Of a stretch of 32,844 bases of DNA, positions 1,453-31,419 are shown piece after piece. Under the pieces are notes generated by a model. It saw only the letters and a list, made by a program, of their open reading frames with translations. It did not search any database and was not told where the DNA came from. This stretch comes from Saccoglossus kowalevskii. Taxonomy: Eukaryota; Hemichordata; Enteropneusta; Harrimaniidae. Location of the stretch: contig NW_003109109.1 in NCBI RefSeq assembly GCF_000003605.2, positions 95,222 through 128,065 of the forward strand. The letters run 5' to 3'. The position numbers and the translations under genes were made by a program. How positions within the stretch are numbered: the stretch's first letter is position 1; every line of letters starts with the position of its first letter.

Positions 1453-2748
1453 GTAAGTACCACTGTAAAATGTAGATGTAAATCAATAGTGATTTGTGGG
1501 GCTTAAAGGTCAACTGTGGGGATGGGTGGTCCCCAAAAGTGGATCATTAGGTCAAATATGAATCATTAAGGTCATTTCTAGACCTTTTCTCCTCTGTCTG
1601 TTGGTTATGAAAAACCGGTGAATTGATATAAATGTATTTATATTAACCGGTCTGTATAGTACACACTGTACTCATGTGACCCGGGAGGTATTTTTGGTTC
1701 AGTAGAATAAATCTGTTTTCAACTTAATATACAATATACCTAAATTATTTTTGTATCTTTGCACCATTTCAGTGTCTCCTAACTCTGCTACCATAGCTCG
1801 CATGTACCGTGACGGACGTCGTTACCAACCAAATGAGCCTCACATCAAGAGACCAATGAATGCATTCATGGTGTGGGCCAAGGAAGAACGCAAGAAGATT
1901 CTGTCCATGCATCCCGATATGCACAATTCAAATATTAGTAAAATACTTGGTGAGTTGTTGTCTTTTTGATTTAATTCATAATCATGCATCTCTTATGATG
2001 TGGTATGTGTAAAGGGAATGTACTAACTGAAAATGGTAATCCAGCTTGTGTGGCTATCCCAATTAATGTGTTAAATGTCTGTCTTTTCTGACCAAACAAG
2101 ATATAATTTCCACCACTCAGAAGTTTTTGAGCCCATCAGCATCCAACTCAACATGTAAAAAACGTAATTCATTCGTTACTGGTGCAGCCTGACTCCAAAT
2201 TTACAGTCAGTATGGTGACAATGTTTCTAATTTTAACTGCTATGCGACTAGCACAGATAGAATAAACAAAAATCTTTAGTTTTTGTTTAAATATTGATTT
2301 CTTTTAGAGCATATGTTTTTAATAAATTTAAAGCACTGAAGAATAATAAAGTTTATTTTTTTATTCATTTATTTTTAAAGGTGCCAAATGGAAAGCAATG
2401 TCTAACGCTGACAAGCAGCCATACTATGAAGAGCAGGCAAGACTAAGCAAGGCACACCTAGAGAAGTACCCTGATTATAAGTACAAACCGCGACCAAAAC
2501 GTACATGTATTGTCGATGGCAAGAAACTGCGGATCAGTGAGTACAAAGCACTGATGAGAGCGAAACGACAAGAGGTACGACATGTTCTTTACACCAGTGA
2601 AGCGCAACGATTGGCTGTTCAACATGCCATTACATCATTAAATGACCAACCTGGCGCCATAATGACCACGGCCAACTCTCCACTGATGGAAAATCCGTAT
2701 ATGCGTTCGCCGGAGTACATCGAGATGAACCGGGATAATAAAGATTAG
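1386..2748 (+). CDS. soxD: SoxD-family HMG-box transcription factor, 3' part (3 exons)
   Basis: Joining 1386-1452, 1773-1949 and 2381-2748 gives 612 bases: 203 residues plus the TAG stop. Both introns are phase 1 with GT/AG ends. Residues about 46-117 are an HMG box that bends DNA at AACAAT-like sites. It contains the Sox signature RPMNAFMVW (49-57) and the SoxD-type stretches [10 protein letters not shown] (73-82) and [13 protein letters not shown] (93-105). After the box, [20 protein letters not shown] continues the SoxD-specific extension shared with SOX5, SOX6, SOX13 and fly Sox102F. SoxD proteins act in the nucleus, dimerise through an N-terminal coiled coil and lack a strong activation domain. 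That N-terminal part lies left of this window, so the gene is partial here. The tail after the extension is short (about 45 residues) and ends EMNRDNKD. Confidence 0.93.
1614..1651. repeat. Near-palindrome in SoxD intron
   Basis: ACCGGTGAATTGATATAAAT is followed closely by ATTTATATTAACCGGT, its near reverse complement. The 3' edge (AACCGGTCTGTATAGTACAC) has a near copy at about 4910-4930 (AACTGGTTTGTATAGTACAC), which suggests a small dispersed inverted-repeat element. Confidence 0.6.
1773..1949 (+). CDS. soxD: SoxD exon with first half of HMG box
   Basis: The acceptor CACCATTTCAG and donor GTGAGT are strong. The exon encodes the linker [16 protein letters not shown] and the HMG box from [12 protein letters not shown] to SKIL. 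The final G plus GT of the next exon makes the Gly of SKILG. The box is therefore interrupted by an intron after helix 1 and part of helix 2. Helix 1 reads [28 protein letters not shown] is a small departure from the vertebrate residues. Confidence 0.93.
2381..2748 (+). CDS. soxD: SoxD terminal coding exon: second half of HMG box and C-terminus
   Basis: The acceptor TTTTTAAAG precedes GTGCCAAATGG. The exon completes the box ([20 protein letters not shown], then [20 protein letters not shown]), followed by the SoxD extension [20 protein letters not shown], a short Ser/Pro/Met-containing tail and TAG at 2746-2748. [13 protein letters not shown] matches the arthropod-type reading at this position rather than the vertebrate [13 protein letters not shown], as I recall those sequences. 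Confidence 0.94.
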
Positions 2749-8377: not shown

Positions 8378-10108
8378 GAGATACTAACTAGTAATAACGA
8401 GATTCTAAATCATTGTGATCAGATACTAACTCGTAATAACATGATTCTAAATCATTATGGTCAGATACTAACTTGTAATAACGAGATAATAAATCATTAT
8501 GATCAGATACTAACTCGTAATAACGAGATATTAAATCATTAAAATCAGATACAAACTCGTAATGATCAGATAGTAACTCGTAATAACGAGATACTAAATC
8601 ATTAATATCAGATACTAACTCGTAATGACGAGATTCTTAATCATTATGATCAGATACTAACACGTAATAACGAGATACTAAATCATTAAGATCAGACACT
8701 AACTCGTAATAACGAGATTCTTAATCATTAAGATAAGATACTAACTCATAATAACGAGATACTAAATCATTAAGATCAGATATTAACTCGTAATAACGAG
8801 ATTCTAAATGATTGTGATCAGATACTAACACGTAATAACGAAATTCTAAATCATTATAACAAGATAAAAACTCGTAATAACAAGATTCTAAATCATTATG
8901 GTCAGATACTAACTCGTAATAGCAAGAAGTTAAATCATTAAGATAAGATAATAACGAGTTACTAAATCATTAAGATCAGATACTAACTCGTAATAACAAG
9001 ATACTATATCATTAAGATCAGATACAAACTCGTAATAAGGAGATACTAAATCATTAAGATCAGATACTAACTCGTAATAACAAGATACTAAAGAATTATG
9101 ATCAGATACTAACTCGTAATAACGAGATTCTAAATCATGATCAGATACTAACTTGTAATAGTGCGATATTAAACCATTATGATCAGATACAAACTCGTAA
9201 TAAGATTCTAAATCATTATGATCAGATACTAACTCGCAATAACGAGATTCGAAATCATTATAACCAGATACAAACTCGTAATAACAAGATTCTAAATCAT
9301 TATGATCAGATACTAACTCGTGATAACGAGATTCTAAATCATTATGATCAGATACTAACTTGTAATAATGCGATACTAAATCACTATGATCAGATACAAA
9401 CTCGTAAGAACAAGATTCCAAATCATTATGATCAGATACTAACTCGTAATAACGAGATTCTAAATCATTATAACCAGATACAAACTCGTAATAACAAACT
9501 ACTAAATCATTATGATCAGATACAAACTCGTAGTAACGAGATTCTAAATCATTATGATCAGATAGTAACTCGTAATAACGAGCTTCGAAATCTTTATAAC
9601 AAGATACAAACTAGTAATAACGAGATACTAAATCATAATGATCAGATACAAACTCGTAATAACGAGATACCAAATCATTGCTATCAGATACTAACTCGCA
9701 ATAACGAGATTCTAAATCATTATAACAAGATACAAACTCCTAATAACAATATTCTAAATTATTATGATCAGATACAACTCGTAATAACGATATTCTAAAT
9801 CATTATGATCAGATACTAACTCGTAATAACGAGATATTAAATCATTAAGAACAGATGCAAACTAGTAATAACGAGATTCTAAATCAATATGATCAGATAC
9901 TAACACGTAATAATGTGATTCTAAATCATTATGATCAGATACAAACTCGTAATAACGAGATACTAAATCATTGTGATCAGATACAAACTGGTAATAACGA
10001 GATTCTAAATCATTTCGATCAGATACAAACTCGTAATAACGAGACACTAAATCATTATGATCAGATACAAACTCGTAATAACAAGATTCTAAATCATTAT
10101 GATCAGAT
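8378..10108. repeat. 42-bp satellite array, about 41 copies
   Basis: The unit is close to TAATAACGAGATTCTAAATC, then ATTATGATCAGATACTAACTCG. Copies differ by substitutions (TACTAACTCG versus TACAAACTCG; AACGAG versus AACAAG) and a few indels. Each unit contains two dyads: CTCGTAATAACGAG and ATCATTATGAT. Because 42 is a multiple of three, long frames stay open on both strands: a 14-residue repeat such as SDHNDLESRYYELV on - (about 8930-9421 and 9862-10194) and NEILNHYDQIQTRN on +. Indels break these frames and no start, splice or stop context supports a gene, so I treat it as a satellite. Confidence 0.96.
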
Positions 10109-10910
10109 AATAAGAGACTTGAAGTGGGATATCGTCTGTCCATCTGTCTTTGGGTTGCATATACATGCATGCGTGAGTTGATTTTTGCAAACAAATAATA
10201 CTTGAAGGGTTACGTATGTACACATACACACACGTGTTGTAATAAGACGGGGACGAGAGCGTAAACAGATTAAATTATTTGGTATTAAATCAGTGGACAT
10301 GGAACTCTAAAACATATCCCAAAATATTACAACATTTAATCTAGTTGCATCAAATCATTCGTTGACTGTCCCGACTTTGTAGCAAATTGTACAAATTTTA
10401 AAAAATTACCATTGAATTCAAAATAAATTAAAGCTGTATATATATATGCGTGTGTATTTTGGTTTATTTTTTGAATATTTCAGGGTGATTACGCCCTCAG
10501 CGTTGACAAACAGACAGTGCAAAAGTAAATAAAATGGTTGTTTGCTGCCTTAAACAGATATTAATATTAAACTAAAATTATTTCTGATGATGATGTTGTG
10601 GTGGTACTATTTTAGAATTGTACGTTCGCTGGTTTATTATATATGTTAAGTTGTTAACGCCCTCGTCGTTAAAAGGAAGAAAGTACGAGAATGGAGATAT
10701 TGCTGTTCGTTGGCCCGAAAATCTACTGAAAATATGCTGTTTACGCCCTCAATGTCGAAGAAAGAAAAATCTTAATGTGAATAAAATGCCGGGGTGCTGC
10801 GTGAAACGGACATTCAGAATAATTTTTTTTATGAATTCTTAATTAAGTGAAAATGAAATTGTTTTTGTGTTTAGACTGGACTTCTTCAATCGTCAGTATT
10901 TTTTTCAAAC
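10109..10910. other. Intergenic spacer with three diverged direct repeats
   Basis: No gene is seen. TTACGCCCTCAGCGTTGACA near 10489, TTAACGCCCTCGTCGTTAAA near 10655 and TTACGCCCTCAATGTCGAAG near 10740 begin related segments. The first and third continue to match through AATAAAATG and TGCTGC. A 74-codon open frame at 10618-10842 covers the second and third copies and has no protein character. Confidence 0.6.
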
Positions 10911-27500: not shown

Positions 27501-30500
27501 AAACTGTAGAGAGTTGTTCATTTGACCAATTCGCTCGTTCATTTGAGTTAAAATCTGCTGTGACTGCGCTACTAGATTTCGTACACGCTGTCGCCTATTT
27601 TCAGATCGCATGCGCATGTTTTGTGGGCTACCCACTGGCCATGCTGCAGCTGATATCTCATCTTCTACATAGTCATTCGGTAAAGGCACAGTAGAGCTAG
27701 CAGGTGTAGTAGCAGTGGCCGCTGCGGCCATCCCAGGACTTTCTGATGGAATCTGTTGGTTGAACTGTTCCTGTAAAAAAAAAAAAAATCTTGATTTCAG
27801 ATATGGCACTATCATTGGAAATAAAGTGAGATGCGCATGCATCCAAACAAATAAAAGATGCAAATTTCACAACAATTTGTATGCGATAACATTTAGCAGC
27901 GACACTAAGGCTGGTTTAATTTCGCTAGAGATGTTTTTGTGAGTAAGGAGGATATTTTGTAGCAATGAACACTATTTAAGACTACCAAGCTGAATACGAG
28001 TGACCTTAGAGAAATTCACTTCTCAATAACTCTTTGGAGGGGCATCTATTTCAGTGTTTCAGATACCACATGACCTACCGAAATATCAAGTTGATGTCCA
28101 AAATATTAAGTTGATCAGTTGAAGCACTCATGACAAACAAATACCCAAACTTTTGGTGATTTTTACTCATATGAAGCTATGGCCAGACATGTTATAAAAA
28201 CAATATCAAATAGATAGGTTGAAGCACATTTGAGAAACAAATACCCAAACTTTTGGTTATCTTTATCAGAGTTGGTGACCAAACCATGTGACTGATTAAA
28301 ACTATAATATTTTTAACACAACAAGCTATGGCCATAAATGTAAAATACAAAATATTCAGCTGATTTGTTGAAGTATTAAAGAGAAACAAATGCCCAAACT
28401 TTTGGTCATACATGTACCATATCATTTTACTTGTTGCTTCTGCAGAGGAAGATTTTCAAGCATTTTTTGTAGAAAAAAGGTCCCGTGACCACTTAAGTTT
28501 TTATTACTGATATTTATTACAGACGAGTTGTACTATATGCCATACAAATCTGATTGCCAAGACCCTCAGAAAGTGATCAAACAACCACTTCTGGTTTAAT
28601 TTTAATCCAATATGGCTGCCGAACCAATTGACCAATTAAAACTCTGAAAGTCTAATGCACCAGTTCACATTACGGACTATCAGTACATTCAGACCAATCT
28701 ACTCAGCGGTTTTCTCAACGACTTGATGAAAAAAACAGTTACAGGAGAAAGTAGAAGAAAAAAAAAAAGCTTTCGGGCTTCACTCCTCAATATTACCAAT
28801 AAGGAAACATGCTCATATCATTAACTTTACTAATGAAAAACAACACTGAAATCCAACTAATAACTGACAACTGTACAAAAGGAAAGGGTTGTTATTACCT
28901 GCAGTTCTCTGGCCAGTGCTTCATCCGCTGAAATCTGGTCAATTCTTTCAATATTTCTCATGGTAGCAGGCGATACTGTAGAAGTTTGCAAAACCTGGGG
29001 GCTTTCAGACTGGGGTAAGTTAAACAGGACAGGATTTATAGGTACTCTCTGCCGAGGGTTTGTTGGTGAAGGCGATACTTCTGTGACAGACGGGGAAGAG
29101 AATAATGCCGACATATTTGTATCAGTTAGGTCAAGACAGATTACTTCTTCATCAGTATCCATATTTGGTGGGGAAGAGTGTCTAACAACTCCTTCAAGTT
29201 CAACAGGATTTATTGCATGTGCTGAAGCAGCAGGTGTACTTGAGTAGAAAGGAAATACTCTTCTACGTGATCTAGTCAGAGGCGGAATAGACATGTTATC
29301 TAAAGATCTATTTGGAGGTGAAATAGAAATCTCATCTAAAGATCTATTTGGAGGTGAAATAGAAATGTCACCTAACGATGTATTTGGAGGTGAAATAGAA
29401 ATGTCACCTAACGATGTATTTGAAGGTGATATTGCTGCTGTAGAGGCACTTGACCGGTTTTGATGACTTATTTCCATATTCATCGAGTTTGATAGACTTG
29501 CACTTGCAACAGTGCTGGTTGCTAAACGTGGAAGAAGTGCTTGACGAAACCGGTCAAACGACAAATCTGGGCTGAATTGCAATGTAGATCTTCTGGTTGT
29601 AGTTTGTTCACCGGCAGGCCCATCACATTCATCTCTGCTTTTGTTCAACCTTGAGGCCCTTGAAGCAGCGCGACCATTGAAAAAACTCCAACCTGGTTGA
29701 GGTGGTTTTAAAGTCAGTCTACCTTGCAATGGTTTGCCGGCGGTCGAGAAGCTTGATGAAGGAGATATTTTTTTTTTCCTCCTAGCAGGCACAGGAATAA
29801 TTCCAACGTCTTCTTTAGTGTGCCCATGATTCTTAAAATTAGCCTTCTTTGTTGGATGTTTGCCTAGTGATTTCACTGTCGACATACCGAACACAAAACT
29901 ATGGTCATCCGAGTCATCCGAAAAATCAACCTCCACATCACCATTCTCGGATACACTGCTAAAGAAAGATGCAGGGTCTTGACCAGTTGGACTCTCAGAT
30001 ACAATAGTGATATCAGCATCAACATTTGGTTTACGTTTTGATTTCTGAGATGTTATGATTGAGGCAGAGGCTTCATTATCACCAACAACAGTTCTTGAAT
30101 ATGGAAACGAAATTATTTTTCTTTTCTTGGAAGTTTTAGATCTTATAACCGGGCTGGAATAGAATGAATTCTCATTATTTTAAGCTGTGTTATCTTTTAT
30201 ACGGTATTGAATAGGTGCAATAGGTATCAAAATATTCTTGCAAATATTGCCAAACTTCCAAAATAAGTTGTGATGATGCAAAAATAATTGTTCCATCAGG
30301 ACAAAATCCAATAACAAATAGCATAAATTGAGAATTTGGTTCATGGGCCATGAATGGAAAACAGCCCAAGTACATGTGTACGTGGTTATGAGAAAAAAGA
30401 AATTACCGGTAACACATATGTATCATGGCAAGATTGCACGTTAGAATTGCAAGATAGAAAGACATACTGTCGGAACTGGAAAGAACTAGTTTTATAGTAA

Positions 30501-31301
30501 ATAATAAACTAGGCACGAATTTCAAGATCCAAATTTTTAAAAACACCTTGGACTGATTAAAATTGTAATGAAAGTATTGAAGGGAATCACATTGCATTCA
30601 GGTGGGGCATTGAGGCAATTGCCTACATGAATTTCAAGCCCTTACAAAACAATGTACTGCACTTTGATAAGCAGCACTGGTACCGTAAAATTTCTAATTG
30701 ACACCGTGGCTTTAATTAAAATTCATTTTTTCAATGGGCGACTTCAGATGTGCGACTTAATTGGACCTATGATTTTTGATAGATAGTAGTAAATTTGATA
30801 AAAATTTAGAAAACATGGTTTCCTCCATGTAGCATACCTGGGTGTTCCAATGATAATGTCTTCAGTCATAGCTGCTTCTTCCAGTGGTTGGTCAGTATCA
30901 TCAAAAACTTTGCCAAAATCCTTGGCACTGAATTTCAGTTTACGCTTCTCTCTGATAGATAGCAGTAAATTTAAAAAAAGTTAGAAAAATATGTACACAT
31001 AAAAAGATAATTTGGAAAAACTTGGAAAGCATAGTTTCCTCCATGTAGCATACCTGGGTGTTCCAATGATAATGTCTTCAGTCACAGCTGCTTCTTCCAG
31101 TGGTTGGTCAGTATCATCAAAACCTTTGCCAAAATCCTTGGCACTGAATTTCACTTTACGTTTCTCTCTGGCTTTGACATACAATGCCAATGATCTTGGG
31201 TGCTTTGAAGACTCTGAGCAGCAATTACATGAATTACACGTCTCTTTGGATTTGCCCGACCTTGACCGGAGTTGATACTTTGTAGACTTGTTGCTTTCCA
31301 T
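24464..31301 (-). CDS. RING-H2 E3 ubiquitin ligase, 8 exons, 801 aa
   Basis: Joining 31301-31054, 30951-30838, 30153-28899, 27770-27486, 26928-26788, 26391-26293, 25408-25190 and 24508-24464 gives 2406 bases (801 residues plus TAA) with GT/AG ends at every intron. In order: a Lys/Ser/Cys-rich N-terminus; a duplicated 38-residue segment (about 46-120); candidate SUMO-interacting motifs DITIVSES (168-175) and VICLDLTD (458-465); four 12-residue repeats (363-410); an ADEALARELQEQF ubiquitin-interacting-like helix (530-542); a coiled-coil-prone region (about 590-630); a basic RS stretch (635-655); and a RING-H2 domain at 755-795 (C-x2-C-x14-C-x-H-x2-H-x2-C-x10-C-x2-C). The pre-RING YEELLLLEEQMG…RGLSKTQLHQLP resembles RNF38/RNF44 and RLIM, while RRLPC…CPICRVEV also recalls RNF111. 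It probably transfers ubiquitin to (possibly SUMO-modified) nuclear substrates. The exact orthologue is unsettled. Confidence 0.88.
24509..25189 (-). other. RING gene intron 7
   Basis: The intron is phase 0 with donor GTAAGC and acceptor TTTCAG. It is AT-rich; the open frame at 24621-24833 (-) has no protein features. Confidence 0.8.
25190..25408 (-). CDS. RING gene exon 7: pre-RING and RING-H2 core
   Basis: It encodes 73 residues, from ELLLLEEQMGPAVARGLSKT to HTECIDPWLK. It contains CNIC (755, 758), LPCFHRYH (C773, H775, H778) and C781. The cross-brace spacing is canonical for RING-H2. The acceptor is TCTATTTCAG and the donor AAG/GTAAGC. Confidence 0.95.
25435..25646. mobile_element. MITE-like inverted-repeat element in intron 6
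   Basis: TACTGTAAAA at the left edge and TTTACAGTA at the right edge are inverted and flanked by TA. Inner segments also pair (TTCACTGTGTTTAAATTT with AATTAAAACCCAGTGAA), giving a 212-bp element with extended inverted symmetry. The TA flanks fit a Tc1/mariner-type target, but this is weak evidence. Confidence 0.6.
26293..26391 (-). CDS. RING gene exon 6
   Basis: It encodes 33 residues starting SVVLRSQSRGRGGRTRIRFQ and ending HTFDDLFGASNYE. The acceptor is CTGTCAG, the donor GTATGT, with both introns in phase 0. It is basic Arg/Gly-rich, then acidic-aromatic, and joins the YEELLLL helix before the RING. Confidence 0.88.
26788..26928 (-). CDS. RING gene exon 5: basic RS stretch and coiled coil
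   Basis: It encodes 47 residues: TRRRVLSPPGRGRRRSRSRQ is a probable nuclear-localising basic stretch, and ELRSELENLDRQLQTLIQSR has heptad hydrophobics. The acceptor is TTTGTGCAG. The donor GTCAGT is slightly unusual (C at +3) but keeps frame. Confidence 0.85.
27486..27770 (-). CDS. RING gene exon 4
   Basis: It encodes 95 residues beginning EQFNQQIPSESPGMAAAATA, then an acidic patch (NDYVEDE) and a helical Gln/Asn/Arg-rich segment (RNLVAQSQQILTQMNERIGQ). The acceptor is preceded by an unbroken run of 14 T. The donor is GTAAGT, and both flanking introns are phase 0. Confidence 0.88.
27771..28898 (-). other. RING gene intron 3 with internal repeats
   Basis: The intron is phase 0 with donor GTAATA. 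It contains three diverged copies of a segment ending AACAAATACCCAAACTTTTGGT at about 28135-28157, 28236-28257 and 28384-28405, two of them followed or preceded by AGCTATGGCC. No exon is seen in it. Confidence 0.75.
28899..30153 (-). CDS. RING gene exon 3: large low-complexity exon with SIM-like motifs
   Basis: The largest exon (1255 bases; residues 121-539), and mostly disordered. It carries a basic KTSKKRK patch (127-133), DITIVSES, acidic DVEVDFSDDSDD (193-204), RRKKK, four 12-residue SPPNxSLxxISI repeats, DTDEEVICLDLTD, several SP/TP dipeptides and the terminal ADEALARELQ. The acceptor TTCTATTCCAG and donor CAG/GTAATA are good. The first base C joins AG from the previous exon to make Ser. 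Confidence 0.9.
29286..29429 (-). repeat. Four in-frame 36-bp coding repeats
   Basis: The four units SPSNTSLGDISI, SPPNTSLGDISI, SPPNRSLDEISI and SPPNRSLDNMSI lie within exon 3. Each holds Ser-Pro, and the ISISP joints resemble phosphorylation sites. Copy number may vary between alleles. Confidence 0.92.
30154..30837 (-). other. RING gene intron 2
   Basis: The intron is phase 2 with donor CAG/GTATGC and acceptor TTCCAG. Next to the donor it contains the intron side of the tandem duplication (about 30777-30837). TACCGTAAAATTTCTAATTG at 30681 resembles the edge of a small repeat, and GGACCTATGATTT (about 30763) recurs near 31961. Confidence 0.75.
30838..30951 (-). CDS. RING gene exon 2: duplicated exon, 114 bp, symmetric phase
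   Basis: It encodes R-EKRKLKFSAKDFGKVFDD, then TDQPLEEAAMTEDIIIGTP. It differs from the 3' part of exon 1 at four of 114 bases (three amino-acid changes, one silent). Both flanking introns are phase 2, so inclusion or skipping keeps frame. The acceptor CTGCTATCTATCAG is followed by AGAGAAGCG. This could be constitutive, alternative or unused; transcripts would decide. Confidence 0.75.
30952..31053 (-). other. Short duplication-derived intron 1
   Basis: The intron is 102 bp, with donor CAG/GTATGC and acceptor TATCAG. It resembles the 3' flank of exon 2, meaning it is the intron part of the tandem duplication. Confidence 0.7.
31054..31301 (-). CDS. RING gene exon 1: probable start and original copy of duplicated segment
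   Basis: The proposed start ATG at 31301-31299 is in GGCATGG context. It encodes MESNKSTKYQLRSRSGKSKE, a Cys-rich TCNSCNCCSESS patch, then AREKRKVKFSAKDFGKGFDD and TDQPLEEAAVTEDIIIGTP. The frame is open further upstream to 31403, but a possible acceptor (GTTCTTCAG) just before the ATG suggests a 5' UTR exon join. An upstream coding exon cannot be excluded. Confidence 0.75.
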
Positions 31302-31419
31302 GCCTGAAGAACTTATGCAACCACTACCTACATGTACATAAAAATAGATGCAAGTCATAATTTGCAAGATACCATAAAAGTCACCACCTCCAATCAAATC
31401 CAAGCATCGACTAAATCAA

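Follow-up and report, generated by a model that had tools for sequence, protein, structure and literature searches.

The 3' end of the ATG-bearing exon of a RING-H2 ubiquitin-ligase gene in Saccoglossus kowalevskii, together with the start of the following intron, is present twice, copied side by side on the minus strand of the analysed window, by which we mean the whole stretch of 32,844 nucleotides at positions 95,222-128,065 of contig NW_003109109.1. The letters show that the duplication left a single new seam, an in-frame copy of phase 2/2 and a gene model that is open either way, with the copy spliced in or left out. We consider it rather probable that the duplication also created a 114-base in-frame exon, which would be spliced via the AG at the seam. 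The proposed course of events would begin with a germline tandem duplication of approximately 216 bases, which copied the exon tail together with the beginning of the intron and was sealed at 2 bases of microhomology. The spliceosome would then pair the first copy's inherited donor with the seam AG as acceptor, the duplicated intron would provide a CTAAC branch-like site and a T-rich stretch, and the copied exon tail would become a new exon of 114 bases in some or all of the transcripts, by which the protein would gain 38 residues.

The duplicated block and its seam

The repeat search of the window found positions 30800-30954 and 31016-31170 to be 95% alike over 155 bases at a spacing of 216, and the chance expectation for such a repeat pair in the window, calculated from base composition alone, is approximately 10^-63. 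A chance resemblance is excluded. The parent segment comprises the 3'-terminal 114 bases of the exon that carries the ATG (31167-31054, minus strand), and the putative new exon, again of 114 bases or 38 codons in phase 2/2, is located at 30951-30838 on the same strand. The coordinates and letters of the duplication given in a preliminary description of this DNA proved correct on re-reading, and the adjacent repeat with four differences in 114 bases (31167-31054 versus 30951-30838) was borne out, including the claim that three of these differences alter the amino acid. The codons that differ between the copies are AAA/AAG (both K), GTG/CTG (V-L), GGT/GTT (G-V) and GTG/ATG (V-M). To call the duplication recent is fair at this number of exonic differences, but the term carries no date.

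The copied start of the old intron (30777-30837, minus strand) is 61 bases long, approximately 40 fewer than in the upstream copy; the earlier statement that about 60 bases of intron were repeated holds for the downstream copy but not for the upstream one, where 101 bases follow the exon copy. The two intron starts are separated by one indel of approximately 40 bases, and depending on where this indel is placed, the mismatches between them amount to 4/60 or 7/61. Since the longer intron copy contains two alike blocks, TTTCCAAGTTTTT and TTTCTAACTTTTT, which are identical at 11 of 13 positions, a slippage deletion in the second copy would be a simple cause of this indel.

The seam itself is located at 30947-30958 (minus strand), where intronic TATCTATCA and exonic CCAGAGAG share a microhomology of 2 bases, CA. 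Because the CA is common to both parents, the break is placed within these 2 bases, and the seam is consistent with microhomology-mediated joining or replication slippage. It had been proposed that the breakpoint turned an exonic AG into an acceptor. An intron-flanked AG was indeed created at the seam; however, its A is of ambiguous origin and could derive from either parent, and only the G is surely exonic.

A tandem duplication yields two old boundaries and a single new one. Both old boundaries are still present, namely the exonic GTCAAAGCCAGAGAG and the intronic TATCTATCAAAAATC, and the new boundary TATCTATCAGAGAG is a hybrid of the two. Since the seam at 30958-30947 is the sole hybrid of the other two boundaries, the single-copy state is ancestral, and the direction of the event follows from the left and right ancestral flanks, which both still exist. 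Judged from these boundaries, the order of events is fixed, with one copy ancestral and two derived, and an AG preceded by intronic sequence has stood before 30951 only since the duplication. The reverse direction, in which an old separate exon would have been copied into exon 1, is ruled out, because only this seam is hybrid. Mutually exclusive exons are ruled out as well, as we infer from the position of the parent copy at the end of the ATG-bearing exon.

The downstream intron also contains a copy of a dispersed repeat (30681-30750), which matches 36 other places over approximately 42-55 bases. When strict scores are used (five copies), the firm part of this repeat spans 30681-30750 and ends 27 bases short of the duplicate's end, whereas looser scores (three copies) let the alignment cross a 13-base gap and reach 30804 with low similarity, beyond the end of the duplicate. 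A transposon as cause of the duplication is so far not supported.

Gene model and splice signals

The gene model, whose exon boundaries were inferred from open frames and GT/AG, comprises eight coding exons that encode 801 residues if the new exon is included and 763 if it is left out, and both versions are open. On the minus strand, the coding exon with the ATG occupies 31054-31301, and exon 3, the next coding exon after the putative new one, spans 28899-30153 and is in frame with either donor. The remaining exons are placed at 27770-27486, 26928-26788, 26391-26293, 25408-25190 and 24508-24464. Both introns flanking the putative new exon are of phase 2, and the claim that a new exon of 114 bases in phase 2/2 preserves the frame is correct in this model: the seam exon, combined with the gene's remaining six donors and six acceptors, gives the open 801-residue frame with a complete RING. 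The openness of the copy is no evidence of its use, because after four random changes it is expected to stay open in 87% of cases. The label exon 1 suits the ATG-bearing exon, but a 5' untranslated exon is possible upstream. Just before the ATG, a possible acceptor TTCTTCAG/GC (31303-31322, minus strand; here and below the slash marks the splice junction) scores 6.31 by the generic matrix described below and -4.34 by the six-site matrix, according to which half of the other AGs are as good, and it may or may not mark such a 5' untranslated exon.

The RING-H2 domain is found at the C-terminal end of the protein (zf-RING_2, 4.8e-13, residues 753-796). The new 38-residue unit reads REKRKLKFSAKDFGKVFDDTDQPLEEAAMTEDIIIGTP, with a basic start and an acidic end. 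The N-terminal region that would receive it is probably disordered, and the new unit would represent a mild lengthening of this region. Exon 3 shows a second tandem expansion in this gene (29279-29429, minus strand), which consists of approximately 4.2 in-frame copies of a 36-base unit encoding SPPNTSLGDISI-like 12-residue repeats, and the intron after exon 3 carries two to three diverged copies of a unit of 64-100 bases (28102-28414). Elsewhere in the window, an open frame at 2350-2748 (plus strand) contains the second half of a SOX HMG box, with SOX-5 as nearest solved structure (2.8e-20), and minisatellites occur at 3-998 (82 bases, 12 times) and 8379-10113 (42 bases, 41 times), the latter with long open frames on both strands because its period is a multiple of three.

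The putative new intron (30952-31053, minus strand) would use the inherited donor and the AG at the seam as acceptor. With 102 bases it would be the shortest in the gene model, in which the other six introns measure 396 to 1128 bases. Its splice signals are present in the sequence: the GT donor in CAG/GTATGC is identical on both copies (exon 31301-31054 ends CCCAG/GTATGC), a CTAAC branch-like site occurs 30 bases upstream of the putative new exon and is followed by a T-rich stretch, and the seam AG is the first AG downstream of the CTAAC site, with no other AG in the 58 bases preceding it. In its old exonic setting, the AG has another AG only 4 bases upstream. Retention of the new intron would bring in one in-frame stop, the TAA within the CTAAC site.

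Splice sites were scored with a generic, approximate matrix and, for acceptors, with a second matrix derived from the gene's six other acceptors only; 3333 other AGs on both strands of the window and 4035 other GTs served as background. By the generic matrix, the inherited donor reaches 9.40, which only 12 of the 4035 other GTs equal or exceed. The seam acceptor reaches 4.06 bits, a value attained by 412 of the 3333 other AGs, and it is the second weakest of seven, given that the gene's other six acceptors score 3.79 to 13.21 and only that of exon 3 is lower (3.79). The same matrix assigns 1.45 to the AG in the old exonic setting versus 4.06 at the seam. By the six-site matrix, the seam AG (2.7, with 9.6% of the 3333 other AGs as high) is barely above the old exonic AG (1.9, with 12.2% as high), and the other acceptors, each left out in turn, score 1.38 to 10.56. 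The two matrices disagree on how far the seam AG stands apart. Taken from these scores, the seam acceptor appears adequate and usable, yet not strong, so that part-time inclusion of the exon would be the natural expectation. A stronger AG (8.37 by the generic matrix), the highest scorer in the downstream intron, is found before 30466, where it precedes a possible pseudo-exon at 30407-30466 (minus strand) of 60 open bases in phase 2/2, followed by CCG/GTAATT; this arrangement is probably due to chance.

Competing readings of the copy

The duplication could be real and the copy nevertheless skipped, with exon 1 joining 30153 as before and the copy persisting as an intronic fossil, which we regard as somewhat unlikely. 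Exon 1 joins exon 3 in frame to give the open 763-residue protein, the seam acceptor is modest, and no constraint is apparent between the copies (pN 0.033, pS 0.041), although selection on the copied exon is not judgeable from three non-synonymous and one synonymous change, which are too few. However, the strong inherited donor, the plausible branch site and the clean AG exclusion zone argue for splicing, and the exon divergence of 4/114 is not above the intron divergence of 4/60 or 7/61 (Fisher p 0.45 or 0.051, respectively). Moreover, weak sites alone are no argument against use, because novel Drosophila introns are reported with weaker splice sites (PMC2809761). We prefer the birth of a spliced exon. 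The earlier proposal that it arose by partial-exon duplication is supported by the sequence as to the copying event and its direction, the preserved frame and the AG at the seam, but the splicing itself is predicted.

A more extended version of this preferred reading, in which the seam made the acceptor of a new cassette exon in one step, the exon is spliced in, and the second charged 38-residue unit may bind partners such as SUMO, appears unlikely as a whole. The specific functional claim that, through the new exon, a SUMO-targeted ubiquitin ligase has acquired an additional SUMO-binding site is compatible with exon birth, and we consider it quite improbable. The protein has the RING-H2, the acidic TEDIIIGTP is found in both copies, and the cores ITIV and VICL in exon 3 fit the usual SIM core by pattern only and lie in acidic surroundings; the gene product also matches the pattern at VGII, IIPV and LLLL, in less fitting places. 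Its order of SIMs presumably resembles that of Arkadia. Nevertheless, the RING is nearer to the solved structures of RNF38 (2.7e-20) and RLIM (1.4e-19), with Arkadia further down (1.2e-14). The usual SIM core is given as hXhh or hhXh in PMC8616421, according to which some known SIMs deviate from it. In the duplicated exon this usual core is absent; both copies contain only III, as DIIIG, which fails hXhh as well as hhXh. Judged by its residues, the new segment makes a weak case for SUMO binding, and we neither class the gene among the SUMO-targeted ligases nor regard the new exon as an added SIM.

It is very unlikely that the repeat is an assembly artefact, in which the two alleles carried by a heterozygous animal were placed one after the other. 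The 3.5% exon difference and the indel of approximately 40 bases between the copies are within the range of alleles in certain highly variable invertebrates. However, the window contains 0 N, a 216-base repeat sealed at 2 bases would be shorter than usual contig overlaps, and the assembly of such a short repeat should require reads across the seam. Furthermore, a search of the 572-Mb assembly at the DNA level found no second full-length copy of the locus, which is present in one place only, and the 36 other matches represent the short dispersed repeat. At the protein level, with 56 of the 70 first-look candidates scored, the 13 matches comprise 7 of the gene's own places and 6 RING regions elsewhere (27 to 46 bits), and no paralog usable as an outgroup was found beyond RING regions.

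Known cases of gain by tandem duplication

Tandem duplication is a long-standing model for the source of introns, and the kind of event proposed here, a gain through tandem duplication of a block that spans an exon-intron boundary, is already known. For the putative new exon, the neighbouring source sequence is identified, with 95% likeness over 155 bases and with the seam and both flanks read. Evidence for intron gain by tandem duplication is reported from a multitude of eukaryotes by a source that calls such findings insufficient as proof of any proposed intron-gain mechanism (PMC3296678), and proven recent intron gains with an identifiable source are described as few (PMC4974935).

The nearest of the cases compared here is the potato RdRp gene PGSC0003DMG402000361, in which an intron arose when a block spanning an intron-exon boundary was duplicated in tandem (PMC4974935). 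As described there, the potato case resembles the hemichordate gene in that one splice boundary was spanned, most signals are parental, the copies show few differences, and one new site was recruited beside the seam. In potato, the intron 3' end and the exon start were copied, whereas in the hemichordate gene it was the exon end and the intron start, and the new potato site is a donor that the exon had contained before in cryptic form, whereas the hemichordate acceptor would have been completed at the seam. The hemichordate layout, as we read it, is the mirror image of the potato case. It must be mentioned that the potato case is backed by RNA-Seq, WGS reads and phylogeny, while the hemichordate case is read from assembled sequence.

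A single duplication leading to a new intron is also the content of the AGGT tandem-duplication model of Rogers with the example ATP2A1 (Hellsten 2011, as cited in PMC4974935). According to that account, however, both sites derive from an exonic AGGT that was duplicated, and the peptide stays as it was, whereas the hemichordate donor is real and old and the protein would gain 38 residues. The Drosophila introns that are traced to tandem duplication at proto-splice sites (PMC2891723) are similar in that duplicated coding sequence with latent sites is split by an intron. Unlike in the hemichordate gene, the proto-splice AG/GY is placed inside exons, and the proposed duplications are not backed by surviving sequence similarity, whereas both hemichordate copies are still plain. 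In the literature searched, no acceptor-side twin of the layout was recognised; Gao and Lynch 2009 may contain such cases.

At the hemichordate locus, all three junctions of the duplication are still readable. If the copied block extends from exon into intron, a single duplication could provide an in-frame exon together with its intron, because an AG is then all that needs to be made. If confirmed by RNA, the gene would cleanly mirror the potato case. If this reading is true and forms with and without the duplication still coexist in the species, exon birth could be followed in its first steps within one population.
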